Shown piece after piece: positions 3,297-46,528 of a stretch of DNA of 64,000 nt. Under the pieces are notes generated by a model. The model did no database searches, had not been told where the DNA came from, and was given only the letters and a program-made list of their open reading frames with translations. Within the stretch, counting starts at the first letter, position 1; every line of letters begins with the position of its first letter. The position numbers were made by a program, and so were the translations under genes. The stretch lies in the NCBI RefSeq assembly GCF_902729405.1, contig NZ_LR746496.1, positions 3,596,001 to 3,660,000 on the forward strand. The letters run 5' to 3'. This stretch comes from Acididesulfobacillus acetoxydans. GTDB taxonomy: Bacteria > Bacillota > Desulfitobacteriia > Desulfitobacteriales > Desulfitobacteriaceae.

Positions 3297-3372
3297 ATCG
3301 GGTAGGAGGCTGGTCATTAATTGACCAGCCGACCTCCCACAGCACCGTACGTACCGTTCGGTATACGGCGCC
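3297..3372 (-). ncRNA. Group II intron domains V and VI
   Basis: Complement of 3341-3372 folds as a domain V hairpin (GCGCCGTA pairing with TACGGTGC, inner stem ACC/GGT). Complement of 3297-3338 gives the domain VI stem (GGCTGGTC pairing with GACCAGCC), which carries the branch-point adenosine. Domain V is the catalytic core of self-splicing introns. Both follow the reverse transcriptase stop by less than 50 nt, the usual arrangement. Confidence 0.75.
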
Positions 3373-3387
3373 TCCAAAGTTTACACG

Positions 3388-4845
3388 TTATTTGGCAGAG
3401 TAGCATTGACTAAAACTGGGGTATCCTGCGCGTTCGATGCGTTTGTTGGATAAGGACATTGTCAAAATGTGGCTATGGGCTACTCGCCAATAGCCCTTTC
3501 TTGTGTTTGCCCACATCCATGCTTGCTCCTTCTTGATGCCAAGCTTCTGCAAGTTCGCGTATCGTGTGCGTACTCTCTTCCATCGTTTCCATGTGACCAT
3601 CCGAATTCGACTTCGTAGCCATTCGTCCATCTTTCCGAGTAACGCTTTGGCGTCTGCCAGTTTAAAGTAATTGGTCCATCCTCGGATGATGTAATTGAGT
3701 TTTGCCTTTCTCTCCTCGATTCCCATCCCGTTGCTCCGTCCGGTGACTTTCCGGATCTTGTCCTTTAGCTTCAGGATGCTTTTCGGGTGGATTCTCAGTC
3801 GTCCTCTTCCTTTGTGGATGTAGAAGCCGTATCCCAGATACTTGACTTTCCTCACGTGTGCCACGCTTGTTTTCTCCTTATTGACTCTGAGGAATAGTTT
3901 CCCTTCGATATAAGGAACAATATGGTCTAGCGTTCGCCGGGCCGCTTTCTCGCTTTTGCAGAAAATCATCATGTCATCCGCGTAGCGTACGAAGCGATGC
4001 CCACGCTTTTCTAGCTCGTGGTCACAAACGTTTAGCATGACGTTTCCAAGTAAGGGACTAAGGGGCCCCCCTTGGGGTACGCCTTCCGGACTTTCTTCAA
4101 ATAGTCCGTCCACCATAATCCCTGCTCTGAGGAATTTATGGATTAGGGATATGACTCGTCCATCTTTGATGGTGTCTGAGAGGATTTGGATGAGTTTGCT
4201 TTGGTTGACCGTGTCAAAGTATTTCTCCAAGTCCATGTCCACGACGTAGACAAAGCCTTCTGTGATATGCCTTTGACATGCTCTTAGCGCGTCGTGAGCG
4301 CTTCGTTGAGGTCGGAACCCATAGCTGTTGTCTGAGAATTGCCTTTCGAAGATTGGCGAAAGGACCTGGGTTATGGCCTGTTGGATCAGTCTGTCCACGA
4401 CGGTAGGGATTCCCAGCTTTCTCATTTTCCCGTTCTCTTTGGGTATTTCTACCCTCCGTACGGGTTTCGGACGGTATTTCCCGTCCCAGAGGGCTTGCAA
4501 AAGTTCATCCTTGTGTCCTTTCAGGTAGGGTAGAAGTTCGTCCACCTGCATACCGTCGATTCCACCCGCGCCTTTGTTCCCCTTCACTCTGTAGTAGGCT
4601 CGATTAAGGTTCTCGGCGCTGAGAATTTCCTCTAGCAGTTTCTCTGTCTGCTCGTCTGTGTTGGTGTTGTCGGTTTTGGTCATCCTGGGTGGCACGCACA
4701 CTTCTGCATACTCTCTCTGTTCCGCAGATGACCTTTGCAGATAGTCTTTAAAGCAAAGTTGTCTGTGTTTTAAATTACCACCTTCGGTAACTTTCATTGA
4801 CCCACACCTCCTTTGGTTCCGCCCTTCCGTCGGTGTCCGGGACAC
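3388..4845 (-). CDS. ltrA: Group II intron reverse transcriptase/maturase
   Basis: LtrA-type protein that helps the intron splice and retrohome. Reverse transcriptase blocks are seen in order: KGAGGIDG, RPVRR-like region with RKLGIPTVVDRLIQQA, NSYGFRP, VVDMDLEKYFDTV, GVPQGGPLSPLL, RYADDMMIF (catalytic YADD), and KYLGYGF. The maturase domain X follows (RGWTNYFKLADAK). No C-terminal HNH endonuclease motif is visible, so mobility would rely on nicked or replicating DNA targets. The frame opens at 4845, but MKVTEGGN (about 4797) is an equally good start. Length 485 residues, ordinary and intact, so the intron may be active. Confidence 0.9.
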   Translation of the reverse strand: MSRTPTEGRNQRRCGSMKVTEGGNLKHRQLCFKDYLQRSSAEQREYAEVCVPPRMTKTDNTNTDEQTEKLLEEILSAENLNRAYYRVKGNKGAGGIDGMQVDELLPYLKGHKDELLQALWDGKYRPKPVRRVEIPKENGKMRKLGIPTVVDRLIQQAITQVLSPIFERQFSDNSYGFRPQRSAHDALRACQRHITEGFVYVVDMDLEKYFDTVNQSKLIQILSDTIKDGRVISLIHKFLRAGIMVDGLFEESPEGVPQGGPLSPLLGNVMLNVCDHELEKRGHRFVRYADDMMIFCKSEKAARRTLDHIVPYIEGKLFLRVNKEKTSVAHVRKVKYLGYGFYIHKGRGRLRIHPKSILKLKDKIRKVTGRSNGMGIEERKAKLNYIIRGWTNYFKLADAKALLGKMDEWLRSRIRMVTWKRWKRVRTRYANLQKLGIKKEQAWMWANTRKGYWRVAHSHILTMSLSNKRIERAGYPSFSQCYSAK

Positions 4846-5199
4846 CTCTGTACTATGGCTTCTGCTGACTCCTCACGACAAATCTTGTTTCAACCGGGCT
4901 TCTTACTCCGTTTCCACCCGTCCGTGAGGCCTCCCACGGTAAGACGATTCACTTTCATTCCATGTCCCCGCAACATTTACGCTGACGTGTCCGTGTAGCT
5001 TTTGGGCTTCAACTTGTATGGCAGTCTTACCCCACATTTCGCGCCTAATATTGTTCGTGTTCCTCGGGGCGGAACTTTGCCGCCGGCTTCCTTCAGATTC
5101 CATCTCGCAATGGACACCCTTGCCTTGAGCTAATGGTTGGTCGCTACATACCCCCATAACGGACTTTCACCGTCAAGTTAATCGTCATGCGTGGCGCAC

Positions 5200-6293
5200 C
5201 AGGAAGTGGCAACTTCATCCAACTGAAATCGCCGACTTTGGCAGTTGTTCGCTAACCGCCAAATACAGTGCGTCACCACATTATTGCCATTAGGATAGGT
5301 GTGTTCTAATCCCTTGACCGCAATGATTGGATCGCTATATGTTTGTTCCCTTTCCTCGTCCTTTCGCACCAGTCCCGCATATTTGTCTTCAGCGATTCCC
5401 AGGCCCAATTCCCGGAACTTTGCCAAGCCTGCTTCCGGATTGAGCGGCAGTTCCGCTTGGGCTATGCCGAGGCTATGGAAATATCGGGGCACCTGCAGGG
5501 CCATGAGTCCCAAAGAGCCGAAATATTCCACTTCTCTGAGGACATCTTGTGGCTTCCCATCCCTGACTATTTTCCCATCATCCATCACCACGATCCGGTC
5601 GGCTTCTAAAGCTTCTTCCGTTTCATGCTCAATAATAATCAACGTCAAGTCTCTATCCTGATGCAGTTCTTTGGCAATTTGGAAAACTCCCAATTTACCC
5701 ATTGGGTCTAAATCTGTGGTGGGTTCGTCCATACAGACGATTTTAGGCTGAATAGCCAATACCGAACCGATCGCCAGCCTTTGTTTTTGCCCTCCGGAGA
5801 GTGTCGAAGGTTGCCTGTCTTCCATCCCTTCCAGTTTGACAACTTTCAGGATTCTGTCCATGATCTTTTGCATCTCAGCTCGCGGCACATTGAAATTCTC
5901 GGGACCAAACACAATTTCCAGTCTGGTGTTGGTAGCAAACAGTTGGGATTCAAAATCCTGAAAAACCAATCCGATGTCCTTGGCCATCGTCCCTACTTTT
6001 TCTTGGGCGGGGTTTTTCCCCATTACAATGATCTCACCCTCGTACTTGCCTTTCATAAAATTAGGGATGAGACCGTTCAGGCAGTTGGCCAAGGTTGACT
6101 TGCCGGCGCGGCTCGAGCCCATGATGACAACAAATTGCCCCTTCTCGATATCCAATGTCAGACCATCCAAAGCTTTTTCCCCTTTTTGTGCTTTATATTG
6201 AAAAGACAAATCCCTAATTCTAATCACTTTTTGGACTTCAAGGTTATCTAAGCTTTTTCCTTCATTTTGCATTTTGCCAAGCCCCCTGTTCAC
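5200..6293 (-). pseudogene. Energy-coupling-factor ABC ATPase (double-ATPase type), truncated by rearrangement
   Basis: The N-terminal ABC domain is complete: P-loop region GSSRAGKST near residue 60, Q-loop VFQDFESQ, signature LSGGQKQR, Walker B VCMDEPTTDLD, H-loop IIIEHE. It resembles EcfA/CbiO/YkoD ATPases that power vitamin or metal uptake. A second ABC domain begins (IIAVKGLEHTYPNGN) but stops after about 15 residues; the frame then runs through unrelated DNA into the group II intron. The Walker A motif has Arg where the middle Gly usually sits. The start overlaps the LysR stop (ATGA, 6290-6293), so both were co-transcribed. No ECF permease or S component is present in the window, consistent with a decayed locus. 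Confidence 0.75.
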
Positions 6294-7198
6294 TCACATC
6301 CGTTATTTTTGATGAACATATCGATTAGTTTCTGAAGATACTGAGGTCGGTATAACTTTTGCTTGTAAATACAGCATAGATCCAAATTTATTTGGCTATC
6401 ATCCAGCTCCAGAATCTTTATATTGGAGTTTTCCCTCAGGGTCCAGGCGGTAATATACGCTTCGGGAAGAATTGATATCCCAACTCCTGATTCTACCAGC
6501 TTGAGGGCCGATTCTTGCGTATCGGTTGAGTAAATGTTATTACTTTTAAGGGAATCTCCTAAAAGTGCACGAACTTCCTCTCCCAGAATGCCTTGACGAT
6601 TTAAGATGATGCGTTCATTCCTGAGATGGCTGAGCGAAATCTTGTCTTGTCGTGCCAGGGGATTGTCTTGTGATGCAATCACAATTGAATTGCCGCTTGT
6701 TAATATTTTATATGTTATACCTGCTGATTCCAGAGTTAATTTGATCCTGTTGTTTGCGGCGACTAAAGCTATATCAAGGGTGTCATCAAGCAGTTTATCA
6801 ATAAGTTCTAAAGTACCGTTTTCTATTATTTCGATTCCTATGCCGGGGTAAATATTTCCGAATTCCTTCAGTGTGTCAGGTACCATCGCGAGTCTTGAAA
6901 CCGGAATAATACCGAGTCTGATAAATCCAACCGCAGGATTTTTTATTTCGGCAATATTGTCTTCAAGATCCTTGATTGAGGCGAGAATCTGCTGAACTAA
7001 CGGAAGAATCTGTTTGCCTTCAGACGTTAGAGTTATTTTTCTTCCTTGTCTTTCAAATAACGGTATCCCTATTTCTTTTTGTAATCCCTGCAACTGCTGG
7101 CTTATTGTCGGTTCGCTGATAAAGAGATGCTCTGCTGCTCCCCGAATTGTACTATATTTTACTACACTGTCAAAATATCGAAGCTGTCTGATTTCCAT
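6290..7198 (-). CDS. LysR family transcriptional regulator
   Basis: 302 residues, normal LysR length. The winged helix-turn-helix is at residues 1-60 (EIRQLRYFDSVVKYSTIRGAAE, SEPTISQQLQGLQKEIG), followed by the periplasmic-binding-protein-like effector domain. It is divergent from the CoA-transferase gene at 7364 with a 150-bp shared regulatory region, the classic arrangement in which a LysR activator controls the divergent operon in response to a pathway metabolite. Its own strand continues into the ABC ATPase through a 4-nt overlap. The effector is unknown. Confidence 0.9.
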   Translation of the reverse strand: MEIRQLRYFDSVVKYSTIRGAAEHLFISEPTISQQLQGLQKEIGIPLFERQGRKITLTSEGKQILPLVQQILASIKDLEDNIAEIKNPAVGFIRLGIIPVSRLAMVPDTLKEFGNIYPGIGIEIIENGTLELIDKLLDDTLDIALVAANNRIKLTLESAGITYKILTSGNSIVIASQDNPLARQDKISLSHLRNERIILNRQGILGEEVRALLGDSLKSNNIYSTDTQESALKLVESGVGISILPEAYITAWTLRENSNIKILELDDSQINLDLCCIYKQKLYRPQYLQKLIDMFIKNNGCE

Positions 7199-7202
7199 AT
7201 AA

Positions 7203-7350
7203 CTACTTCACCTCAGTTAATCGATAGCTACGAACTATCAATCATGTTCAATTGATTGTATTTTCCTAAGATGAAATATAGTATACTCCTTTTATAGAGT
7301 ATTGTGAATAGTTAGAGGAACCAGTGATTCCTACATGCAGCTATTGAAAG
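7203..7350. promoter_or_regulatory. Divergent lysR / CoA-transferase control region
   Basis: Contains dyads suitable for a LysR dimer: GATAG-N7-CTATC (7223-7239, T-N11-A type) and CAATC-N10-GATTG just after it. A weak plus-strand promoter may be TTGATT near 7253 with a TATAGT-like -10 about 18 bases on. Assignment to the neighbouring LysR is inference from position. Confidence 0.45.
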
Positions 7351-7363
7351 GATGAAACGTGTT

Positions 7364-8545
7364 ATGGATAAGAAAAGTATTTTGGAGGGTATTCGGGTTC
7401 TTGATGCCAGTACTGTTATGGCCGGGCCTCTTATGTCAAATTTATTAGGGGATTTTGGAGCCGAGGTCATTAGGATAGAGCAGCCGGGAACGGGTGATGT
7501 TATGCGGCACGCTGAAGGTTCAAGTTGGAAAGTGAGTAACCGCAACAAAAAGTGTATCACATTGGATTTTCATAAACCTGAGGCGGGAGAAATCTTTTAC
7601 GGATTAGTAGCAGAATCTGATATCGTAATCCTCAATTTTAGACCACAAGCCCTTGGAAAATGGAAGATTGATTATGCAGATTTGGTTAAAGTCAAAGAAA
7701 ATATCATCCTTATGCACTTTACCGCCTTCGGTAGAACCGGCCCCTATTCTCAAAGACCTGGGTTCGCCAGAGTGGCGGAAGGTTTCTCCGGATTAATGCA
7801 TATTACAGGATTTCCTGACCGGAAACCCGTTCCCAGCGGTTACCCGATAATGGATGCCTTTGGTGGAGTTTATGGGGCATTCTCTTTAATGCTTGCCTTA
7901 TATCATCTTAAAGAAACCGGTCAAGGACAGCTTATTGATTTGTCATTATATGACCCCATATTAAGAACTATGGAAGATTACATTGTCGATTTTGATCAGC
8001 ACAAGATGGCAAAAGAAAGGATAGGCACTCATAATCCATACGTTGCTCCCAATGACCTTTATGAATCTTTAGACAAACGGTGGCTTATACTTCCTGCGAG
8101 TAACGAAAACATGTACAGACGTTTGTTAAGAGCATTGGGACTTGAAGAACTGCTCACCGATCCAAGGTTCCTTTCTAACAGCGATAGAGTGCGCCATCGG
8201 ATTGAACTTGATAAATACTTGATTAAATTCTTTGCCGGTCATACCTTTGATGAATTAAAGAAGTTATTGGAAGAGCATGATGTTGCTTATGGTTGGGTTA
8301 ACTCTGTACAGGAGCTTGTCAGCGATCCTCATGTCCAGGCCAGGGAAGATTTAATTTCGGTTTTTGATCCTGAGCTGCAAATGAAAATAAAGATGCAGGG
8401 CATTGTTCCCAGAATGTCCAAAACGCCTGGAGAAGTAAAATGGGTAGGTCCGGCACTAGGCGCTCACAACCAGGAAATCTATCATAATATTTTGGGCTTT
8501 TCGGAGGATGAAGTAAAGGTATTAATGCAAAAAGGAGTTATTTGA
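7364..8545 (+). CDS. CaiB/BaiF family (family III) CoA-transferase
   Basis: Moves CoA between carboxylic acids, as formyl-CoA transferase and CaiB do. The catalytic Asp is in GYPIMDAFGG, at about residue 164, matching Asp169 of formyl-CoA transferase. The N-terminal GIRVLDAS, DFGAEVIRIEQP and NRNKKCITLDF blocks and the RTGPYSQRPGF block are typical. Full length (~393 residues). I prefer the ATG at 7364 because the AAAGGA ribosome site abuts the earlier ATG at 7352. First gene of a plus-strand run with two transporters, a small membrane protein and a C45 acyltransferase; together they suggest uptake and CoA activation of an organic acid, identity unknown. Confidence 0.85.
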   Translation: MDKKSILEGIRVLDASTVMAGPLMSNLLGDFGAEVIRIEQPGTGDVMRHAEGSSWKVSNRNKKCITLDFHKPEAGEIFYGLVAESDIVILNFRPQALGKWKIDYADLVKVKENIILMHFTAFGRTGPYSQRPGFARVAEGFSGLMHITGFPDRKPVPSGYPIMDAFGGVYGAFSLMLALYHLKETGQGQLIDLSLYDPILRTMEDYIVDFDQHKMAKERIGTHNPYVAPNDLYESLDKRWLILPASNENMYRRLLRALGLEELLTDPRFLSNSDRVRHRIELDKYLIKFFAGHTFDELKKLLEEHDVAYGWVNSVQELVSDPHVQAREDLISVFDPELQMKIKMQGIVPRMSKTPGEVKWVGPALGAHNQEIYHNILGFSEDEVKVLMQKGVI

Positions 8546-8698
8546 GGTCAGTCTTTGTTTGTTTTTCTGAGTACGATGCTTTAAATAACGCGGTTTGTTG
8601 TAACAAGACGGTACAAGGAAAGGCGGGTGATTGCCGGTCGATAAAACTCATGAGCAGGGTGGCTTTTTAGTGAAAACGGGAGGGGAGGTCTTTTGCGT

Positions 8699-9982
8699 AT
8701 GTCTCGACATGGCAGGTTAGTTATCGCCTTACTGTTTTTTTTAGGGGTTATTAACTTCGCTGATAAAGCAGTTATTGGATTCGCAGCCGTTCCGATTATG
8801 AAGGAATTCCATATTACGCCAGGACAATGGGGTTGGGTTGGAAGTGGGTTTTATTGGCTCTTTTCTTTATCGGCAATTATTTTTGGTGGACTTTCGGATC
8901 GGGTGGGCACAAAAAAGGTTCTTACAGGATTGAGTGTCGTATGGGCAGCAGTCCAGTTTGCGACCTTGTTTACCTTTAGCGTGCCGTTTCTGGTTGCTAC
9001 GAGAATTATGCTTGGGGCTGGAGAAGGTCCATCATACGGCGTATCTTTGCATGCGGCGGCAAAATGGTTACCACCCGAGCAACGTGGATTTGGCTATTCG
9101 CTTATGTCAATTGGTGGGGCAGTCGGCCCAGCCTTGCTGGCACCGGTTCTGATCGCATTGATTGTCAATTTGGGATGGCGTTGGGCTTTTGCTTTATTGG
9201 GCGTTGTCGGATTGGTCTGGCTCCTGATTTGGCTCATTTTTGCCAAGGAAAGTCCGGATCAACAGCAGATGAATGTTCCCGAAACGCAGATATCTCATGG
9301 GCGCACATCGTGGTCTCGTGCACTGCCTATTATCCGTTCCCGTAATTTTATCTTCTCGGTTTTTGCTGGATTCGCGGGATACTGGGGCGTGACAATGCTG
9401 GTCGTTTGGACTCCTGCTTATCTTGTTCATGTTCGTCATTTTCAAATGGCCCAGTTAGGACTCTTAGCTGGGTTGCCTTGGCTCACTACGGGTATTGCAC
9501 AGCTTCTTCTTGGCTGGGTATCTGATCATCTTTATCGAAAAACTAAGAATATTAGATTGGCAAGAGTACACCTTAGTGGATCACTACTTTTATTGTCGGC
9601 TATATCTTTCTTTATGGTAACAATTGTGCCGTCGACGGGATTGGCGATTTTGTTTCTTTGTTTGGGTCCGGCTCTCTCTTCATCAGTATTCGGTATCGGC
9701 GGCGCTCTCGTGGCCGAATTAATCGCTCCGGAACATCGCGGTTTGATTCAGGGAATTTTAGTTGGCTTGTCCACGACTGCGGGCCTAATCGCCCCAATCA
9801 TTACGGGAATGGTTATTGGACAAGGAGGCCCGCAAAACGTAATCGTGGGCTATAACCATGCCTTTGGGTTAGCTGCTCTAGTGACTCTGGTTTTAGGAAT
9901 ACTGTTTTGGATTGTCGTTAGACCGCCACAGGTTCTGACAAGCTCAAGAATGCCAAACGAGTTTCCAGATGTGCGATACTAA
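8699..9982 (+). CDS. MFS transporter, anion:cation symporter-like
   Basis: About 427 residues with 12 predicted membrane segments. The N-terminal half has the MFS signature loop (GGLSDRVGTKKVL) and NFADKAVIGFAAVPIMKEF, resembling ACS-family carboxylate/sugar-acid permeases. GGAGG at 8684-8688 is 10 nt from the ATG at 8699; a TTG at 8693 is a poorer choice. It lies 150 bp after the CoA-transferase and just before a second, unrelated transporter, so it probably imports the acid processed by this cluster. Substrate cannot be read from sequence. Confidence 0.8.
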   Translation: MSRHGRLVIALLFFLGVINFADKAVIGFAAVPIMKEFHITPGQWGWVGSGFYWLFSLSAIIFGGLSDRVGTKKVLTGLSVVWAAVQFATLFTFSVPFLVATRIMLGAGEGPSYGVSLHAAAKWLPPEQRGFGYSLMSIGGAVGPALLAPVLIALIVNLGWRWAFALLGVVGLVWLLIWLIFAKESPDQQQMNVPETQISHGRTSWSRALPIIRSRNFIFSVFAGFAGYWGVTMLVVWTPAYLVHVRHFQMAQLGLLAGLPWLTTGIAQLLLGWVSDHLYRKTKNIRLARVHLSGSLLLLSAISFFMVTIVPSTGLAILFLCLGPALSSSVFGIGGALVAELIAPEHRGLIQGILVGLSTTAGLIAPIITGMVIGQGGPQNVIVGYNHAFGLAALVTLVLGILFWIVVRPPQVLTSSRMPNEFPDVRY

Positions 9983-10000
9983 AGCAAAGGAAGAATAACA

Positions 10001-11419
10001 GTGGAGCAAGAAAAAAGTTTCGGTATACGGGTCAGCAAACAAGCATTTTTTCAGTCCTTGTTTATTTTACTGGGTACGATGCTGCTAGCGGGGCTTTTAA
10101 CCCTCATCATTCCACCCGGTTCCTTTGACCGGGAAACAGTGAGAGGTATTCAAACCATCGTTCCCAATTCCTTTCATTATACAGCCGATTCTTATTCCTA
10201 CCCTGTTTACCGTTGGTTTACCGCACCGATTGAGGTGTTTTTCTCCGCACATGCACCGACAGTAATCATGATTATTCTCTTTATTCTCTTTGTGGGTGGC
10301 TCCTTTGCCATTCTTGATGCTACCCGGGTTTTTGAAAGCCTGATAGGATCTATTAGCCAGCGGTTTATGCACGCGAGATACCGGTTTATTGCTATCATGA
10401 CGCTCTTCTTCATGATGCTTGGCGCAGTCTTTGGAATATTTGAAGAAGTGCTGCCACTGATTCCTATCATGGTGATGGTAGCCAAACGGCTCGGCTGGAA
10501 TGAACTGATGGGATTGGGGTTAAGCCTATTACCTACCGGATTCGGCTTTTCCGCCGCCATTACCAATCCCTTTACGATTGGAATCGCGCAGAAGCTGGCG
10601 GGGTTACCGCTCTTTTCCGGGATCGCTTACCGGCTCTTCATTTTCGGCGTTATTTACCTCATCGTTATCTTTTTCCTGATTCGTTATGCGAAACAGCTGG
10701 AACGTTCTGATCCTCCAAATAAAACGTTGGAGACTAACAACCCTCCTCTTATACCTTCCGATAATCCAGCAGGACTTTGGGTCATGGGAGTAGGTTTTGT
10801 TCTCCTTCTCATCGTCATGATGATCTTTCCCATCATCGGTTTGGGTGATTATTCCATGCCCCTCATTGCCTTGGGCTTTCTCCTGATTAGCCTTTTGGTG
10901 GGTGTGGTCAATAGGATTCCCATCTCAAAACTCCTCTCAATCTTTTTTCATGGGATCAAGGGGATCGCCCCTTCCATGGTCTTAATCATTCTAGCTATGA
11001 GCGTAGAACAGATTATTGTCTCAGGTCATATTATGGATACGCTTCTCTATAGGGCGTCAGAACAGCTGCACAACTTATCGCCTGTCCTGGCCGGCTTCGG
11101 GATTTATCTCTTCGTTTTTGTTCTTCAATTCTTTATTCATTCTGCATCTGCAAAAGCCTTCCTCGTTATCCCGATCCTCACCCAACTCGGTGATCTGATT
11201 GGGCTTACACATCAGAATGTCGTACTGGCATTTAACTTCGGTGATGGGTTTAGCCATCTGCTATACCCGACCAACCCTGCTTTAATCATCGCCCTCAGTC
11301 TCTCCTCGGTTCGCTTTATGACTTGGTTTCGTTGGACCATAGGAATTCAGGTGATCGTGTTTGTTTTAACGATGTTCTTCTTAGCTTTAGCTGTCTGGTT
11401 CGGATATGGACCATTTTAA
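10001..11419 (+). CDS. YfcC/DcuC-superfamily membrane transporter
   Basis: 472 residues, about 12 hydrophobic segments, with the YfcC-like opening (LIIPPGSFDRE, followed by the PIEVFFSAHAP region) and the conserved GFGFSAAITNPFTIGIAQ and NFGDGFSHLLYPTNPAL blocks of this ion-transporter-superfamily branch. Relatives move C4-dicarboxylates, short peptides or basic amino acids. GTG start, 18 bp after the MFS gene; same operon. Two transporters from different families side by side suggest import of a precursor and export or exchange of a product. Confidence 0.8.
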   Translation: MEQEKSFGIRVSKQAFFQSLFILLGTMLLAGLLTLIIPPGSFDRETVRGIQTIVPNSFHYTADSYSYPVYRWFTAPIEVFFSAHAPTVIMIILFILFVGGSFAILDATRVFESLIGSISQRFMHARYRFIAIMTLFFMMLGAVFGIFEEVLPLIPIMVMVAKRLGWNELMGLGLSLLPTGFGFSAAITNPFTIGIAQKLAGLPLFSGIAYRLFIFGVIYLIVIFFLIRYAKQLERSDPPNKTLETNNPPLIPSDNPAGLWVMGVGFVLLLIVMMIFPIIGLGDYSMPLIALGFLLISLLVGVVNRIPISKLLSIFFHGIKGIAPSMVLIILAMSVEQIIVSGHIMDTLLYRASEQLHNLSPVLAGFGIYLFVFVLQFFIHSASAKAFLVIPILTQLGDLIGLTHQNVVLAFNFGDGFSHLLYPTNPALIIALSLSSVRFMTWFRWTIGIQVIVFVLTMFFLALAVWFGYGPF

Positions 11420-11497
11420 GGAAGTGCCATGTCCGCTGAATTACTGTGAACACATGCCAACTTTCTCCCGCTTCAATGATGAAAGGGATGGTTCTGA

Positions 11498-11845
11498 ATG
11501 AAAACAGCAAGATTACTGGCAGCTATTTTAATGGGTGTTTCCGCCGCTACCCATCTTGTGCAACTAATCGTCATGAATTTTCAGGCTGATGTGCTGGTAG
11601 CCGGTCTGGGTTTTGGATTAATGTATGCTGTCATATCCTTAGGGCTCTTTATAAACTCCAAAGTATTTTATTATATCGGGGCCATTTTACCAACAATAGG
11701 TGGGATGCTGGGAGTTTACCGGTACTTATTCGTCAGACCTAACTGGTTCTCACTGTTAAACGTAGGAATTGATTTGGTTGTAGTACCATCCTGCATTTAT
11801 CTGATCGTGAAACTAAGAACTCTAAATATTGAAAGGAGAAATTAA
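11498..11845 (+). CDS. Small four-helix membrane protein, unknown
   Basis: 115 residues with about four hydrophobic helices (starting MKTARLLAAILMG; loops at VRPNW and a basic C-terminus RTLNIERRN). No family recognised. It sits 2 bp before the C45 acyltransferase start and 78 bp after the YfcC-like transporter, so it is in the same transcript. Possibly an accessory to a transporter or to the enzyme that follows; that is only positional inference. Confidence 0.7.
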   Translation: MKTARLLAAILMGVSAATHLVQLIVMNFQADVLVAGLGFGLMYAVISLGLFINSKVFYYIGAILPTIGGMLGVYRYLFVRPNWFSLLNVGIDLVVVPSCIYLIVKLRTLNIERRN

Positions 11846-11847
11846 TT

Positions 11848-13263
11848 ATGGCTGCGGGGAATGGAGTTTTGGAAGAAAGAGACGGGCTATTGGTACTGCA
11901 CCTTAAAGGATCTTCTTACGAAAGGGGATTTCAACACGGCTCCCTTCTGGCCGAGCAAATCTTTGAAAGTTTCAGCAAAGAGATGACAAAATACTCACTG
12001 ATATACGGCGAAGGCAACGCAGAAGCAGGCATGAAACTACTTCGGGATTCTACCCAATTGATGAAACCCTATGTTACTTCCGACTTGCGCAAAGAAATCC
12101 AAGGCATCACTGACGGGGCCGCTTCAAAAGGCAAAGACATCACCTTTGATGATATCCTCCTTGTGAATTGCGTCAGTAATGTGTTGCTTTTCCCCCACGG
12201 TTTGGCTGATCCCGCTGCAACAACAATGAATGAGCCATTTTCCGATAACTGCAGCGCCTTTGCCGCCTGGGGAAAGGCTACGGCTGATGGCAAACTAATC
12301 TATGGCAAAAATACCGATTTTGGTGTGATGACGCTGCCGGACTTTCCGGTTGTCATGATTAACGAACTCCAAACCGGCTATGCCTCTATCTGCCCTTCTT
12401 TCCCGGGTGCGGTTGCTGTGGCCTCCGGAATGAATGAGGCCGGAATAGCGGTGGGATCTAATTTTTCCGGTTCGAAGAATGCCACGATGCGTGGCACCCC
12501 GGCGTTCTTCCTAGTGCGGGCGATGCTAGACAAAGCTGCTTCAATTGATGATGCTCTAACAATACTGAGCACATTTCCCCGCCAGCGAGGAATGAACTTT
12601 ATTATCGCTGATGGGAAAGCCAAGGACGCCGTTGTTGTTGAGGTAACCGGGACAGAGTTGGCAGTCCGGCGCGGACAAAAAGACACCATTTATGCAACCA
12701 ACCACTTTAATTGTTATCCCGGCTGGCAAGGATACAGCGGATACAACATGGTAGCAGGCCAGGCCACTGCGTATAAGCTAAACGATATCAGCACGATTGA
12801 AAGATGGCAAGAAAGTATAAAACAGGCGGATCCCTCATCGTTTGCCCGCTATGAACGGCTTCATGACCTGTTGGCGAAAAATCATGGCGAAATCGATATT
12901 GCCAAGGCAATCAGCATCATGAGTGACCGGTTCGACATGGTGTCCGACAGGCTCTTAGGATGGGATGAGTATGGACATGCTATCTGTCAACTGGGAGCTC
13001 AAGTAACCATAGCTTCAAGCGTCAAATATTACCGGAGCGACCAAGTTGGAGCCATTACTGACCAGCATATAACCTGGTCTTCTGAAATCGGAGACCCGGA
13101 AGAGCTGCTTATATGGATCGCGATTGGGAATCGTCCAGCCCAGCGGGGGAAATATATCCTCTTTGATTTGAAAAAAGAGATTCCCTCGGTAAAATACCAG
13201 TTGGAAAAATACTATCAACGATCCACCGCGAAAAGCCCGCTAGAGTTGCTGAACCAAAAGTAA
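11848..13263 (+). CDS. C45 family autoproteolytic acyltransferase/hydrolase
   Basis: 471 residues of the acyl-CoA:6-aminopenicillanate acyltransferase-like (peptidase C45, Ntn-hydrolase) family. The presumed nucleophile is Cys135 in DNCSAFAAWG; in the family the chain is cut just before this Cys to expose it. Other family marks: GSSYERGFQHG near the N-terminus and GKNTDFG, GMNEAGIAVGSN after the Cys. These enzymes hydrolyse or transfer acyl groups on amides; many are uncharacterised. Last gene of the CoA-transferase cluster, 2 bp after the small membrane protein. A role in cleaving or forming an N-acyl compound would fit the neighbouring acid transporters and CoA-transferase, but the substrate is unknown. 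Confidence 0.85.
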   Translation: MAAGNGVLEERDGLLVLHLKGSSYERGFQHGSLLAEQIFESFSKEMTKYSLIYGEGNAEAGMKLLRDSTQLMKPYVTSDLRKEIQGITDGAASKGKDITFDDILLVNCVSNVLLFPHGLADPAATTMNEPFSDNCSAFAAWGKATADGKLIYGKNTDFGVMTLPDFPVVMINELQTGYASICPSFPGAVAVASGMNEAGIAVGSNFSGSKNATMRGTPAFFLVRAMLDKAASIDDALTILSTFPRQRGMNFIIADGKAKDAVVVEVTGTELAVRRGQKDTIYATNHFNCYPGWQGYSGYNMVAGQATAYKLNDISTIERWQESIKQADPSSFARYERLHDLLAKNHGEIDIAKAISIMSDRFDMVSDRLLGWDEYGHAICQLGAQVTIASSVKYYRSDQVGAITDQHITWSSEIGDPEELLIWIAIGNRPAQRGKYILFDLKKEIPSVKYQLEKYYQRSTAKSPLELLNQK

Positions 13264-13338: not shown

Positions 13339-14343
13339 TTAGTTAAATAGTTCTGCTTTGAGTTTCTGCACTGTTTCCAAGGGCACACCGGTTATCTCGG
13401 CAATGTCTTCTAAAGGCAATCCTTTTTTCACTGCGTTTCGGGCTGCTTCCAGCTTACCTTCCAGCTTACCTTCCAGCTTGCCTTCTAATATACCTTCTTG
13501 CTTAGCTTTTTCTACCTCAATAGGATTGTACAGGAGTCTAGTCATGCTCAGCACCTCCTCATTTAGCTTTTCATCATTCACATATCTGTTGTTTAAGTAC
13601 CGGAAGAGTTCTTCATTCGCTAAGAGTATTTTGTGCAGGTCCCCTCCGTCTATTTCCTCAACTTTAAAAAGTCTGGCTGCTTCATGAGCCATTTCTTCCA
13701 CGATCTGTTGGGCTTTCTCGATTAATTCTCTGAGTTCTTGTTCTGTGTGGGTCTTTCTCAGTTTTATTCTTTCCATCTGATAGCGTAACTTAAATACCTG
13801 TAATGGCAATAGTGGATAGAGTTTTTGTTCTAAGATCTCTTCTTTACCATATTCCCAGTATTTCATGACCGGTACTCGGTATTTTACTTCCTGTCCATCG
13901 GGAAATATCAGTCTCAGTCTTAGTTCATCTTTAATGCTTGGATTTTGTTCGATGAAGATTACCAACTGTTTGGAGATGTAGAATATCGTTTCTTCTTGGT
14001 CTCCAACGCCTTGGGCTATTTCTTTGGCTTTGCTGATTCCGTATTCTAACATTCTGATGACCATGCTGTCATCGTTGAGTGTCTGTATCTCTACGTGATA
14101 ATGATTAGATTGGTCAGCATCGCTAAGTTTAAGAAAGATGTCTCCTCTGAGAATATTATACGCATCGTCAACGAATTCATTGCTGCCAAAGCTTACTTCG
14201 GTGGCTTCTGCTGCATAGTTTTCTTTGAACAGGCTGTTTAACATGTTGATCAGAACTTTGTTCGATACTGTGAACAGCGATTTTAGTATTTCGTCCAGTT
14301 TTATCCGATCAGAGTTTGCGTCCTTTTGGGGCAAGTTGCTCAC
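13339..14343 (-). CDS. Rpn/PD-(D/E)XK nuclease family protein (putative transposase-like)
   Basis: 334 residues. The Rpn family of recombination-promoting nucleases keeps the active site GDI (Asp68) followed by HVEIQT (Glu85, Gln87), both visible. The C-terminus has a tandem EGKL stretch followed by a helix-turn-helix-like tail (LEDIAEITGVPLETVQKLKAEL), as is common in this family. The 12-bp DNA repeats beneath the EGKL stretch could change copy number. Convergent with the C45 gene and divergent from the TetR gene. Likely a solitary, horizontally spread gene. Confidence 0.85.
   Translation of the reverse strand: MSNLPQKDANSDRIKLDEILKSLFTVSNKVLINMLNSLFKENYAAEATEVSFGSNEFVDDAYNILRGDIFLKLSDADQSNHYHVEIQTLNDDSMVIRMLEYGISKAKEIAQGVGDQEETIFYISKQLVIFIEQNPSIKDELRLRLIFPDGQEVKYRVPVMKYWEYGKEEILEQKLYPLLPLQVFKLRYQMERIKLRKTHTEQELRELIEKAQQIVEEMAHEAARLFKVEEIDGGDLHKILLANEELFRYLNNRYVNDEKLNEEVLSMTRLLYNPIEVEKAKQEGILEGKLEGKLEGKLEAARNAVKKGLPLEDIAEITGVPLETVQKLKAELFN
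13447..13494. repeat. 12-bp tandem repeats inside the Rpn-family gene
   Basis: Four 12-bp units (TTCCAGCTTACC type); the first three near identical, the fourth degenerate. They encode the EGKL stretch in the nuclease gene, so gain or loss of a unit stays in frame. Confidence 0.85.
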
Positions 14344-15178: not shown

Positions 15179-15301
15179 AACCCAGGCAGAGCAACGCCGC
15201 CTGTTAAATGCTCCGCGTAGGCCCGGGTGAAACGGGGTAGAGCAATGTCAAAAGGACAAACGCGTAATGCATTGTTTTTCTGGTAAAGGGGGGGATCCGT
15301 G

Positions 15302-18300
15302 ATGTATCAAGCGCTGGATGTTCTGGGCGCTCGTCTGGCAGGGAGTGCCATGCTGAGGCTGATGTCTCTTTCTTTTCGTCTGGATCCGGCGTTGCGACGC
15401 AACCTGGTTGACGGCAAGAAAGGCTTGTACGACTATGTTTTCAATGCCCGGTTGTTGTTCCGGACTCGGGATGATTCTGTTCTGATTCATGTTGAGTTCA
15501 AAGAGGGAAAAATGCAGGTGGGCCGAGGTCGGATTGAGCGTCCGGATTTAACCCTGACTTTTAAATCTCCTCAAACCTTGCGCAAGCTTTTTTCTCCCTT
15601 CAATCCGGGGGATCCCTTGATCATGATGTTAGAGAACGAACTTTCCGCTGAGGGAAATATGATATTTCTCGCCCGATTCGGACATCTGGGGAAAGAAATC
15701 TCCACGGGTAAGAAAAAACGACGTCGGCTGGCCCATGCCGGCCCCGTGCCACTATCGGAGGTCGGCACAACGCCACCCTCAGGTGCAACCTACAATCCCG
15801 AGTCCAAAGCGAAACCCTTTTGGCCCATGCAGCCACCCGGGGCAGCAGCACCAACCAGCAATTCCAGACTCAATGAGGCACCGATTCGGCAAGCAACCCT
15901 CATATCCAGCCCCCATGACCAAGTTGGGGTACTGTCCGAACCGTTTCTCAGCCGTTACACCTTGGAGGACTTTCCCCGCCTCAAGTTTATCCGTCAGAGG
16001 CTTAACGATAACCCCGGAGAAATCTGCAGCGAGAGACCCCGCCTACTCACGGAGTATTTTCTCCAGGCCGGCTTCGAACGGGATGCTTCCGGACGGGAAC
16101 GGGATCCGGAACTGCGTCAGGCCGAAGCCTTAAACCATATTTTGACACACCGCCAGGCGGTTATCCACGATTGGGATATTTTAGCGGGAACGAGCACCAC
16201 GAAAGAGGTCGGCGTTCTGCTCTACCCGGAATTTGGTGCGGGTCTTCTCTGGCCGGAACTTCTGACGATTGATGAACGCAAACTTAATCCGTACCGAATA
16301 ACCGTGGAAGATATTGATATCCTCAACGATCTCATCTTTCCCTTCTGGAGCGAACGTAATGTCATGGAATACACTCGGGCCCACTATGGTAATCCGAGTT
16401 GCCAACAGCTCAATGACCGCTGGGTGCTTTATTTTTCCTGGAAACCGCATGCGGTATCCCATACTATTCCCGATTTCCCCACTATTCTCCGGCGTGGGCT
16501 TTTGGATCTCATGCGCGAAGCACAGGAAATGGAGGCCAGTGCCCAAACGGAAAAAGAACGTACCTTCTATCTCGCTTTACAGATTGCTCAGGAGGGGGTT
16601 CTGGCCTATACGGCACATTTGCGGGAAAAAGTGCAAGAGATGGCCGCCCAACTTACGCCAAGGGAATCGGCGCCAGAGCAGCGCCGTAAGCAAGAGTTAC
16701 TGGACATGGCGGAGGTTTTGGCCAGGGTTCCGGCTTATCCGGCCCGCACGCTGAAGGAAGCGGTCAACGCCATCTGGCTCTGTTGGGTCTCGCTTCATAT
16801 GGAGAATATGAATGCCGGACTCTCTTTGGGCCGTCTCGATCAATGGTTACAGCCCTATTTTCTGCAGGATATCGCCCGTGCCCAAAGCGAAGAAGAAAAG
16901 GAAAAAATTATTTACCGGAGCATTGAGTCAGTCGGAGCCTTGTTCTTGAAATGTGCCGATCATCTTCCGGCTTCCCCGGACATCGGCAACCGTTTATTCG
17001 GCGGCAGTTCTTCCGACCAAGCTCTAACCCTCGGCGGGGTAACTCCGAGCGGAGAGAGTGCGGTTTGTGATATGACCTACATTTTTCTCAAGGTTACGGA
17101 AATGCTCACCCTGCGCGATCCGAATGTGAACGCCCGCTACTATCCAGGCGTCAACTCACCGGAGTACCTCAAACGCCTGATCGAGGTGAACCGCATCACC
17201 GCAGCCACACCTTCCCTGCATAATGATGCAGCCATCATTCCCGCCATGCTGCAACAAGGATTCAGTTTGGAGGATGCGCGAGACTGGGCTGCCACGGGAT
17301 GTGTGGAACCGACCAGTGCCGGCCGCCATTTTGGGCACACGAATAGCATGCTGCTTAATACAGTGGCTCCGCTGGAGATGGCCCTGCATAACGGCTTTCA
17401 TCCTCTCCTGGGCGAACAGGTGGGACCCGAAACCGGCGATCCGTCCCTTCCCGGAACTTTTCCCACATTTGCCTCTTTTAAAGAAGCCTACAAGCTGCAA
17501 TTGAGTTTTCTAATTAGTCAGGCTATTGAGTATAATAACCTTTTGGGAAAATCCCATCAGTATCTCCATCCGACCCCTCTATTGTCTTCCTTCATCCAAG
17601 GCCCCATAGAGAAAGGAAAAGACGTTATTGAAGGAGGTGCCCGCTATAACTCTTCCGGTGCCGCTCTCGTCTCCATTACGGATGTGGTTGATAGTCTGAT
17701 GGTCATTCGGAATTTGATCTATGAGGCAGAAACGGTCAGCTGGACCATTTTATTGGCTGCTCTAGCCGCAGACTTCAAGGGTTATGAAACCCTTCATGCC
17801 CTAATTCTCTCCAAAATACCTAAGTTCGGCACAGAAGCCGAACAACCACGCCAACTCGCCCAAGAACTGATCGACTTCATCTATGCTGAATATCAAAGCC
17901 ACGAAAACTACCGTGGCGGCAAGTACACCAGTGGTTTCTGGAGCATGTCCAACCATGTGGCTTTCGGCACGCTCTCGGGAGCGATTCCTTCCGGACGGCG
18001 GAAAGGACAGCCTTTTACACCGGGAATCACCCCTTCGCCGGGGGTTGGCGATCAACTCCTAGACAACATGCAGACCGTTGCCTCGCTTAAAGCTGAAATG
18101 ATGCCCAACAACATCGCTTTTAACGTAAAAATTGCCCCCGGTCCTCAAGATACGCATGCCCTGTTTGTCGAGCGGGTTGCTGCCTATACCCAAACCTATT
18201 TTGAACTCGGCGGTATGCAGCTTCAGTTTAATATTGTAACGACCGAAACCCTCAAAGACGCCATGGCTCATCCCGAGAACTACCGCTGGTTGCTGGTACG

Positions 18301-18406
18301 CATTTCCGGATATAATGCTTATTTTATTGAATTAAACGAGGATATGCAACAGGAAATCATCCGGCGTACGGAATTTCATCTGGAAGAGAAACGGGGGCTT
18401 GTATGA
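15302..18406 (+). CDS. Glycyl radical enzyme with N-terminal SCP2-like domain
   Basis: About 1034 residues, roughly 200 more than usual for pyruvate-formate-lyase-like enzymes. Residues ~1-140 look like an SCP2 sterol-carrier fold (VLIHVEFKEGKMQV, RPDLTLTFKSPQTL, then a short ENELSAEGNM segment). A basic, Pro-rich linker (~140-210) follows. The catalytic part has the thiyl Cys667 and Glu669 in TGCVEP, a GARYNSSGAAL block, GFWSMSNHVAFG, and the glycyl radical loop VRISGYNAYF with Gly1003. Cys-x-Glu excludes a true pyruvate formate-lyase (Cys-Cys) and is shared by dehydratases, lyases and arylacetate decarboxylases. An SCP2 domain suggests a hydrophobic substrate; that is inference. The activase overlaps by 4 nt and an aldehyde ferredoxin oxidoreductase follows. 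Start ATG 15302 (GTG 15299 also possible) after a G-rich ribosome site. Confidence 0.85.
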   Translation: MYQALDVLGARLAGSAMLRLMSLSFRLDPALRRNLVDGKKGLYDYVFNARLLFRTRDDSVLIHVEFKEGKMQVGRGRIERPDLTLTFKSPQTLRKLFSPFNPGDPLIMMLENELSAEGNMIFLARFGHLGKEISTGKKKRRRLAHAGPVPLSEVGTTPPSGATYNPESKAKPFWPMQPPGAAAPTSNSRLNEAPIRQATLISSPHDQVGVLSEPFLSRYTLEDFPRLKFIRQRLNDNPGEICSERPRLLTEYFLQAGFERDASGRERDPELRQAEALNHILTHRQAVIHDWDILAGTSTTKEVGVLLYPEFGAGLLWPELLTIDERKLNPYRITVEDIDILNDLIFPFWSERNVMEYTRAHYGNPSCQQLNDRWVLYFSWKPHAVSHTIPDFPTILRRGLLDLMREAQEMEASAQTEKERTFYLALQIAQEGVLAYTAHLREKVQEMAAQLTPRESAPEQRRKQELLDMAEVLARVPAYPARTLKEAVNAIWLCWVSLHMENMNAGLSLGRLDQWLQPYFLQDIARAQSEEEKEKIIYRSIESVGALFLKCADHLPASPDIGNRLFGGSSSDQALTLGGVTPSGESAVCDMTYIFLKVTEMLTLRDPNVNARYYPGVNSPEYLKRLIEVNRITAATPSLHNDAAIIPAMLQQGFSLEDARDWAATGCVEPTSAGRHFGHTNSMLLNTVAPLEMALHNGFHPLLGEQVGPETGDPSLPGTFPTFASFKEAYKLQLSFLISQAIEYNNLLGKSHQYLHPTPLLSSFIQGPIEKGKDVIEGGARYNSSGAALVSITDVVDSLMVIRNLIYEAETVSWTILLAALAADFKGYETLHALILSKIPKFGTEAEQPRQLAQELIDFIYAEYQSHENYRGGKYTSGFWSMSNHVAFGTLSGAIPSGRRKGQPFTPGITPSPGVGDQLLDNMQTVASLKAEMMPNNIAFNVKIAPGPQDTHALFVERVAAYTQTYFELGGMQLQFNIVTTETLKDAMAHPENYRWLLVRISGYNAYFIELNEDMQQEIIRRTEFHLEEKRGLV

Positions 18407-19332
18407 ACAAACCCTCGCTGAGCAAAACCTTGATCAGAGAACCTCTAATTATAGAAATCAAGCGCAATGCTTTAGACGATGGGCCCGGCATCCGCACCGT
18501 TGTCTTTTTCAAAGGCTGTCCCTTGTCTTGTGTCTGGTGTCAAAATCCGGAGGCCATTAACCCTGAAGTAGAGGTAATGTTCTCGCCGGGGGACTGCCTT
18601 CACTGTGATATCTGTCAACAGGCTTGTCCCACCGGGGCCCTCGATCTGCAGCGACAACCCTACCCTATTGACTTGGCAAACTGTCAACACTGTACGGTTT
18701 GTGTGGATCCGTGCCCCAGCCAAGGACTGCGGCGTATGGGCCGGGTCTATACCGTCGAGGAACTGATTGAAGAAGTCTTGCGGGATAGCGCATTCTACCG
18801 CAATTCAGGAGGCGGAGTGACCTTATCCGGGGGCGAAGCCACCCTTTACCCGGATTTTCAAATGCGACTGCTTCCAATACTGAAACAACAGGGAATTCAT
18901 ATTACGCTGGAAACGTGCGGCTATTACCAGCGCCCTCAGTTCGAGAGGCATATCCTTCCCTATCTGGATCTGATCTTCTTCGATCTCAAGTTCGCCGATG
19001 CCGGGCAGCACCAGCGGTATACGGGCAAACGCAATGATCTCATTTTAGCCAACTTCCGGCAACTGGTGAAGCTGTCCAGGATACCGGTATTACCGCGCAT
19101 ACCCCTGATTCCGGGAATTACTACGACTCCGGAAAACTTACAAGGCATCGCGGATTTTCTGCGTTCTGAAAATATACATGAAGTAGCCCTGCTGCCCTAT
19201 AACCCGCTTTGGAGCGAAAAAGCAGAGCATCTGGGACGGGTACTGACTTATCAGCACTCACAATGGCTGAGCGCAGAAGAACTGTCCGCCTGCAGTCACT
19301 ATTTTACAGACTTCAAAATCATTTACTTTTAA
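18403..19332 (+). CDS. Glycyl radical enzyme activase (radical SAM)
   Basis: 309 residues. Radical-SAM motif CPLSCVWC (Cys39, 43, 46) binds the [4Fe-4S] cluster that cleaves S-adenosylmethionine to abstract hydrogen from Gly1003 of the partner. Two extra ferredoxin-type clusters are encoded by CLHCDICQQACP (from Cys65) and CQHCTVCVDPCP (from Cys94), as in activases of CutC-, HpdB- and glycerol-dehydratase-type enzymes and unlike PflA. GGGVTLSGGEATL and LETCGY are standard. The ATG overlaps the stop of the enzyme gene (ATGA), showing translational coupling. Confidence 0.92.
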   Translation: MNKPSLSKTLIREPLIIEIKRNALDDGPGIRTVVFFKGCPLSCVWCQNPEAINPEVEVMFSPGDCLHCDICQQACPTGALDLQRQPYPIDLANCQHCTVCVDPCPSQGLRRMGRVYTVEELIEEVLRDSAFYRNSGGGVTLSGGEATLYPDFQMRLLPILKQQGIHITLETCGYYQRPQFERHILPYLDLIFFDLKFADAGQHQRYTGKRNDLILANFRQLVKLSRIPVLPRIPLIPGITTTPENLQGIADFLRSENIHEVALLPYNPLWSEKAEHLGRVLTYQHSQWLSAEELSACSHYFTDFKIIYF

Positions 19333-22173: not shown

Positions 22174-22599
22174 TTGCGCGCAGACTGCTTCCAGGAAAGC
22201 GTGCGCTTCGGCGACGGCCATTACATCATCCCGATCCGTGGTGAAGAGTGGGGGACAAAAGTGGATACAAACGAGGACGGCACGTATAACACCATGGTAG
22301 GGGATACTATTGATGTCACAACCATCCAAACCATAAATTTCGGAATAAAGGTTTATAACGCCACTTCCAGTGACCACATCAGGATTTTTACCAAAGCGGG
22401 GTGGGTTGACCCCGGCAATCCGAACATCGGCGATACGAATTGGCTTCCGGCCGGCAGCGGCAACCCTTGGACCTATGTGTTCAGCAAGACCTTCACGGCC
22501 AATGAACAGACTTTTGTGCGTGTCGAGTTGAGGCAGTCTTGGTTAACAAACTACTCCATGGATGGGATGACCAATCCAATCTACATCAATATCCATTGA
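22174..22599 (+). pseudogene. Remnant of CehA/McbA-like PHP metallohydrolase
   Basis: The frame joins a short piece like the PHP-domain segment around GEEWGT (HYIIPIRGEEWGT) directly to a C-terminal beta-rich segment ending in a MTNPIYINI-type terminus typical of such secreted hydrolases. The metal-binding core in between is missing, so this looks like an internally deleted relic. No signal peptide or credible ribosome site was found. Family assignment rests on two short stretches and is tentative. Confidence 0.4.
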
Positions 22600-42450: not shown

Positions 42451-42756
42451 TGTATAAATCCGCCTTTCTGCGAAAGGCACCGATGGGGTTATGAAACAAA
42501 AACCCATCATCCTTTCACTCTTTTTGTGCTATCCTCCTCTTGTAGGTCGCTGGTATACTACAGAACCCGAGGAGGTGAGTGGCGGGGCTGTATAGCGGCA
42601 ACCCCGTATGTGTATATGGTGTCGGTCATCCGTTAAGGCATCAATGAATGGCGCAAAACAGTAGCCCGTAAACTTATCTCTTCCGAAGTTGACTCGATTT
42701 CGCCGGATGACCAGTCCCTGCCATCCCTACAAGTATTTTTGCTGGAGGTACTTCTT
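42451..42756 (+). ncRNA. Left end with candidate bridge RNA (copy 1)
   Basis: 306-bp non-coding DNA before the IS110 transposase. In IS110-type elements the left end encodes a bridge RNA with target- and donor-binding loops. Here a hairpin GCGGGG...CCCCG (about 42575-42606, loop including TATAGCGG) follows a GTATACT -10-like box (about 42551). Exact RNA ends cannot be set by eye; the loop guides were not decoded. Confidence 0.5.
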
Positions 42757-46222: not shown

Positions 46223-46528
46223 AAGAAGTACCTCCAGCAAAAATACTTGTAGGGATGGCAGGGACTGGTCATCCGGCGAAATCGAGTCAACTTCGGAAGA
46301 GATAAGTTTACGGGCTACTGTTTTGCGCCATTCATTGATGCCTTAACGGATGACCGACACCATATACACATACGGGGTTGCCGCTATACAGCCCCGCCAC
46401 TCACCTCCTCGGGTTCTGTAGTATACCAGCGACCTACAAGAGGAGGATAGCACAAAAAGAGTGAAAGGATGATGGGTTTTTGTTTCATAACCCCATCGGT
46501 GCCTTTCGCAGAAAGGCGGATTTATACA
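46223..46528 (-). ncRNA. Left end with candidate bridge RNA (copy 2)
   Basis: Mirror image of 42451-42756 with the same hairpin and -10-like box. If the two bridge RNAs are truly identical, they carry the same target loop, so the two insertions should share target-site features at their flanks. Confidence 0.5.

Follow-up and report, generated by a model that had tools for sequence, protein, structure and literature searches.

The window analysed here is a stretch of 64,000 nucleotides from Acididesulfobacillus acetoxydans, covering positions 3596001-3660000 of its single-contig, 4.52 Mb genome (G000). Near its start lies a gene cluster that combines a CaiB/BaiF family III CoA-transferase with a C45-type N-terminal nucleophile (Ntn) amidase/acyltransferase. 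A preliminary description had listed five plus-strand genes downstream of a divergent LysR gene; all six are indeed present in the window, and Pfam or NCBIfam assigned every one to a family except the small membrane protein. The features are as follows, in window coordinates:

6290-7198, minus strand: LysR-type regulator, divergent from the cluster (Pfam HTH_1 and LysR_substrate)
7199-7351, no strand: LysR-CaiB intergenic region, with conserved blocks in a three-genus DNA alignment
7352-8545, plus strand: CaiB/BaiF family III CoA-transferase (PF02515, 364.7 bits)
8693-9982, plus strand: major facilitator superfamily (MFS) carrier of the anion:cation symporter (ACS) type (PF07690, 190.7 bits)
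10001-11419, plus strand: DcuC/YfcC-family carrier (PF03606, 187.6 bits), a variable insert
11498-11845, plus strand: 115-aa membrane protein with about four hydrophobic segments by hydropathy, a variable insert
11848-13263, plus strand: C45-type Ntn amidase/acyltransferase (PF03417, 108.1 bits; cut-off 23.2)

The second ATG of CaiB, at 7364, is in frame and better placed behind GAAAGG than the one at 7352, and is the probable translation start; the MFS carrier probably starts at the ATG at 8699. From CaiB to C45 the four intergenic gaps measure 147, 18, 78 and 2 bp, so the tight spacing described earlier holds for all but the first. No plus-strand terminator-like site was found in any of the gaps, which is a weak test for a single transcript. 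The C45 protein scored above the NCBIfam cut-off for NF040521 (183.1 vs 85), and the NCBIfam matches of CaiB, MFS and YfcC were all under theirs. The MFS carrier reached 194 bits with TIGR00893 (cut-off 395); the YfcC-like carrier fell short of the equivalog NF008611 (YfcC basic amino acid antiporter; 194 bits vs 500) and belongs to the wider family PF03606. The small membrane protein had no Pfam or NCBIfam match, and a search of 199 genomes returned its own genome and one marginal match (E 7.1e-4).

Scanning genome contigs for relatives of the C45 protein gave four among 33 candidate stretches, at 92% (locus L002), 85% (L003) and 33-34% (L004 and L005) identity; across 61 genomes, its own included, three matches were strong and two weak. 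Class-wide, a close C45 was present in 3 of 82 genomes, namely G000, G015 (which carries L002) and G041 (which carries L003); the genus-mates G001, G009 and G039 had no C45 match in the same search. All three loci with a close C45 show the order CaiB-MFS-C45 behind a divergent LysR, and these genes and LysR are conserved in two other genera, where the proteins are 81-94% identical. The LysR orthologue in the same position is 86% identical in L003 and only partial in L002, where the contig stops inside the gene.

The genes between MFS and C45 are variable, and YfcC is gone from both L002 and L003. In L002 the sequence joins at window positions 9985|11411, so that YfcC is reduced to its final 9 bases with the spacer behind them, a pattern that looks like loss by deletion; its small membrane gene is in frame but 45 codons shorter. 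MFS and C45 are 54 bases apart in L003, with neither YfcC nor the small gene between them. The full five-gene set was seen only in the window genome among the genomes examined, and the conserved unit is one of four genes (LysR, CaiB, MFS of the ACS type, and C45), with YfcC and the small gene outside it. The gene-neighbourhood search for CaiB, C45 and YfcC proposed in the preliminary description thus came out positive for CaiB and C45, which stood together in all three loci, and negative for YfcC, found in neither relative. The concern that the co-occurrence might be peculiar to this genome does not apply to the CaiB-C45 pair, which recurs under a divergent LysR beyond the window. An exchange of precursor and product by the two transporters found no comparative support, YfcC being apparently lost in one relative and absent from the other.

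A separate resemblance between the window and L002 was seen at 22344-22586, where 243 bases are 97% identical to L002 4764-5006, downstream of the truncated C-terminus of C45 in that locus. The stretch is single copy in the window and is probably a mobile or repeated element.

The ratio of non-synonymous to synonymous substitution rates (dN/dS, NG86) among the three loci was 0.09-0.18 for CaiB, MFS and C45, and 0.16 for LysR, for which the window and L003 formed the only comparable pair; the core genes are under purifying selection. Because of these ratios and the protein identity retained in two other genera, the three genes and LysR are not chance open reading frames. The LysR-CaiB spacer is also strongly conserved across the three genera, with a GATAG-N7-CTATC motif, a probable LysR box, and a long A+T-rich block; the spacer probably holds promoter-side sequence as well.

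The G+C content of the core genes is 0.39-0.50, against 0.516 for the whole window and 0.53 for the far flank of L003, and this low value together with the patchy spread suggests that the cluster was horizontally acquired. The same two features would also fit a CaiB-MFS unit and a C45 unit that became chance neighbours on a mobile stretch and share no pathway, as would the coming and going of YfcC and the small gene and the presence of a group II intron close by. The recurrence of one gene order with low dN/dS in three genera argues against such an accident, which we regard as quite unlikely. The intron itself occupies 3297-5177 on the minus strand (Rfam matches at 4943-5114, 4821-4890 and 3297-3373), contains an open reading frame at 3388-4845 that is reverse-transcriptase-like by eye, and interrupts an ATP-binding cassette (ABC) ATPase gene at 5178-6293, just beyond LysR.

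An AlphaFold model of the C45 protein, with 14 sequences in the alignment, had a predicted local distance difference test score (pLDDT) of 85.1 and a predicted template modelling score (pTM) of 0.88. A sequence search of solved structures gave no match for C45 and none for the YfcC-like carrier; Foldseek placed isopenicillin-N acyltransferase at the top of the matches to the C45 model (E 2e-18). VIA-align superimposed the model on 2x1e with Z 38.8 and a root-mean-square deviation of 2.7 over 341/350 residues at 16% identity. Hydrolases occupy rows 4-6 of that list (Z 27-29), with NAAA (Z 28.7) and acid ceramidase (27.6) among the hydrolase matches, and the fold also matches bile-salt hydrolases. 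Structural alignments to mature beta chains begin at model residue 135, and Cys135 is invariant in 14/14 aligned proteins; it is predicted to be the nucleophile, N-terminal after removal of a pro-region. A low-confidence stretch of the model immediately before it, residues 119-132, would fit a processing loop. No hydrophobic segment was detected in C45 by hydropathy, and the enzyme is probably cytoplasmic.

These structural matches bear on a biosynthetic interpretation close to the N-acyl compound first imagined for the cluster: CaiB would make an acyl-CoA, C45 would transfer the acyl group to an amine, and a carrier would export the N-acyl product. The best structural match is an acyl-CoA-using enzyme and a CoA-transferase gene adjoins, as such a pathway would have it. 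The hydrolases of rows 4-6, the C45 relatives linked to PanE and PanB (below), which fit hydrolysis, and an MFS carrier that is of organic-anion symporter type and no clear exporter all point the other way, and we consider biosynthesis unlikely.

The CaiB protein covers the PF02515 profile from 1 to 366 of 366, and among solved structures it is closest to 4ed9 and succinate--hydroxymethylglutarate CoA-transferase. Asp168 (numbered from 7352), the predicted catalytic residue, lies in an MDAFGG motif and aligns with an Asp of 4ed9 and 9br6. A search of 249 genomes of the phylum gave just two further CaiB matches at E<=1e-90, at 41% and 39% identity. The neighbourhoods of these two and of three among 121 matched plasmid records were read, and all five relatives (39-41% identity) sit in surroundings that read as degradative: an HMGL-type lyase and an MFS carrier in L057 and L070, an HpcH/HpaI lyase and 2-oxoacid:ferredoxin oxidoreductases in L058, and beta-oxidation or thiolase genes in L068 and L069. 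The nearest solved relatives of the MFS carrier are the D-galactonate transporter, VGLUT and sialin.

Taken together, the cluster may be an operon, horizontally mobile and controlled by LysR, for the catabolism of an amide-linked organic acid, a reading that we hold with about even confidence. The MFS carrier would import the amide; in the window strain the YfcC-like carrier might assist, and might transport a product as well. Cytoplasmic C45 would cut its own chain before Cys135, which would then hydrolyse the amide to a carboxylic acid and an amine; CaiB would transfer CoA from a cellular acyl-CoA to the freed acid, and the activated acid would enter central metabolism. We infer co-transcription, this order of steps and the direction of breakdown. 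The catabolic operon is favoured because the LysR-CaiB-MFS-C45 order is kept in 3/3 genomes with low dN/dS and a conserved spacer, because of the C45 fold and its lack of a hydrophobic segment, because genes for PanE, PanB and Liv-type ABC uptake accompany the nearest C45 proteins from beyond the class whose context is informative, and because the five CaiB relatives lie in surroundings that read as degradative. The acid-processing role proposed in the preliminary description fits the folds, as an acid or amide role, and synthesis of an N-acyl compound is possible; the contexts of the relatives point instead to breakdown.

Several observations weigh against a catabolic operon. The C45 family was founded on an acyltransferase that depends on acyl-CoA, and the adjoining CoA-transferase could equally supply acyl-CoA for synthesis. 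The cluster contains no next enzyme such as a lyase, dehydrogenase or hydratase, the 147-bp gap between CaiB and MFS leaves room for a second promoter, and low G+C and patchy spread say nothing of function. The window cluster is of interest as an intact, conserved, putative CoA-transferase plus C45 operon.

The PanE/PanB-linked relatives come from a different family of the phylum. A C45 search of 398 genomes of the phylum matched 16 at E<=1e-20; scores above 400 bits occurred only in G000, G206 (two) and G371, all others being at or below 129 bits. G206 and G371 are members of a single family, represented by 8 genomes in the search. All three of their loci (L030, a 6.9-kb contig, L031 and L032) have PanE and PanB immediately after C45, and before it a Liv-type ABC substrate-binding protein (LivJ, by eye). 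In L031, whose C45 (8086-9507) has the conserved cysteine at residue 148, the two enzymes were scored against family models (PanE, TIGR00745, 282.9 vs 141.35; PanB, TIGR00222, 328.2 vs 207.55), and PanB of L030 and L032 is also above the TIGR00222 cut-off. After PanB, the row in L031 includes butyrate kinase (421.3 vs a cut-off of 289.1), phosphate butyryltransferase (396.5 vs 410.5 with one model, 401.1 vs 399 with another), two proteins recognised by eye as a second kinase and a 4Fe-4S protein, and also VorB (559.5 vs 399) and a thiamine pyrophosphate (TPP)-enzyme subunit. A methylmalonate-semialdehyde dehydrogenase (557.2 vs 448.5) is encoded beyond the ABC genes of L032, together with an S58 peptidase and a class III aminotransferase that scored under the cut-offs of its best models. 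Genes of the 2-ketoisovalerate-to-isobutyrate or beta-alanine type thus adjoin two of the three loci, and an acid-phosphatase-B protein follows PanB in L030 (106.1 vs 27) and, by eye, in L032.

None of the 8 genomes of this family, several of which are incomplete (72-97%), gave a match to PanC (TIGR00018); 9/14 control genomes were positive in the same search. PanB was found in only 2/8, the two carrying C45. Since PanB and PanE cannot serve the usual bacterial synthesis of pantothenate where PanC is absent, the context makes a degradative role beside C45 the likelier one in this family. A third panB of G206 lies away from C45, by eye in a DeoR-DUF1537 kinase-PdxA-TRAP transporter-FAD oxidase cluster (L045 1470-9088); PanB is therefore not used only with C45 in G206, and this cluster is a possible further degradative use.

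From its gene context, the PanE/PanB-linked C45 clade is a candidate for pantothenase. Pantothenate would be taken up by the Liv-type ABC system and cut by C45 into pantoate and beta-alanine; PanE and PanB, running backwards, would yield 2-ketoisovalerate, which 2-oxoacid:ferredoxin oxidoreductase, phosphotransbutyrylase and butyrate kinase would convert to isobutyrate and ATP, while the aminotransferase and methylmalonate-semialdehyde-type dehydrogenase would consume beta-alanine. We propose tentatively, and with less than even confidence, that the long C45 subfamily contains the missing pantothenase, that this clade opens anaerobic degradation of vitamin B5, and that the window cluster is a CoA-transferase variant acting on the same or a similar hydroxyacyl amide.

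The window C45 and the PanE/PanB-linked proteins are 35-36% identical over their whole length, and among the 265 alignment columns that show no variation inside either clade, the two clades agree at 124 (81 of these also in L004 and L005). The ACS family of the MFS includes Fen2, a pantothenate carrier of fungi. Both points would suit a window cluster that itself degrades pantothenate, C45 releasing pantoate and beta-alanine and CaiB activating one of them in place of the PanE/PanB route. However, PanE and PanB are missing from all three clusters (window, L002 and L003), we know of no pantoyl-CoA pathway, and in G041, the genome of L003, the single panB found adjoins panC, as for biosynthesis. 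A Liv-type ABC operon beside C45 in L003 was considered as support for a shared pathway and dropped; it has no LivJ match, its LivH is 24% identical to that of the PanE/PanB loci, and by sequence it is of a different subfamily. With CaiB in place of PanE and PanB and a different Liv subfamily, the substrate of the window cluster may differ from pantothenate, and its degradation by this cluster seems to us quite unlikely.

The genome of the window has panC and two panB genes, both away from the cluster and, by eye, without PanE, Vor, Ptb or Buk in their neighbourhoods. At L049 6003-8448 the second, divergent PanB-like gene (TIGR00222 220.6 vs 207.55) adjoins an MFS carrier, away from panC. In G015 (76% complete) panC was present and no panB was found.

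The long C45 proteins of L004 and L005 have neither a CaiB nor a PanE/PanB context; L004 shows an RpiR regulator (by eye), an MFS carrier, an FAD oxidoreductase and a C45 with a signal-like N terminus (by eye). Because these contexts differ, the long C45 subfamily is not tied to one pathway. A C45 search of 395 genomes of the phylum of L004 matched only its own genome, and a scan of viral contigs gave no C45 relative. Plasmid relatives of C45 (mostly 23-29% identity) were set aside as too distant; their contexts were scattered, and the three regions that were read had neither CaiB nor PanE/PanB next to C45.

Other features of the window were noted in passing. Directly behind C45, at 13339-14343 on the minus strand, lies an Rpn-like (PD-(D/E)XK, transposase-associated) protein by eye, with no Pfam match. 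A 1035-aa glycyl radical enzyme with about 220 extra N-terminal residues is encoded at 15299-18406 on the plus strand and stayed below threshold with its best-matching models (TIGR01774, 517 vs 678; CutC, 397 vs 1050); the genes that come after it, read by eye, are those of a probable activating enzyme (18403-19332) and of an AOR-like protein. Two 423-aa transposase-like open reading frames, at 42739-44010 (plus) and 44969-46240 (minus), share the same start sequence in opposite orientation and are IS110-like by eye.

Among known systems, succinate--hydroxymethylglutarate CoA-transferase and other CaiB/BaiF CoA-transferases match the window CaiB over its full length in solved structures, but the latter passes no NCBIfam cut-off. 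Isopenicillin-N acyltransferase (PDB 2x1c/2x1d/2x1e) shares with the C45 model its fold and, as predicted for C45, a pro-region followed by an N-terminal cysteine; the two differ in sequence (16% identity), and C45 is bacterial and stands in a putative CoA-transferase/MFS operon, with no penicillin genes seen in its surroundings. NAAA and acid ceramidase, which are lysosomal and act on lipid amides, have the fold and nucleophile position of the C45 model at lower similarity (Z 27-29) than isopenicillin-N acyltransferase.

The remaining comparison is with pantothenase (EC 3.5.1.22), an activity known from Pseudomonas fluorescens. PMC10393543 describes the protein as unidentified as of 2023 and isotope work as indicating that pantothenate cleavage is widespread in bacteria. 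No identified pantothenase gene and no pathway combining CaiB and C45 were found in the open-access literature, with subscription literature mostly outside the search. The window cluster departs from what is expected of a pantothenase locus in having no PanE or PanB, whereas the pantothenase reaction would explain a C45 amidase followed by both in the relatives. Tracing the window C45 outward thus gives a concrete gene candidate for this enzyme, which is the strongest reason for interest in the cluster.

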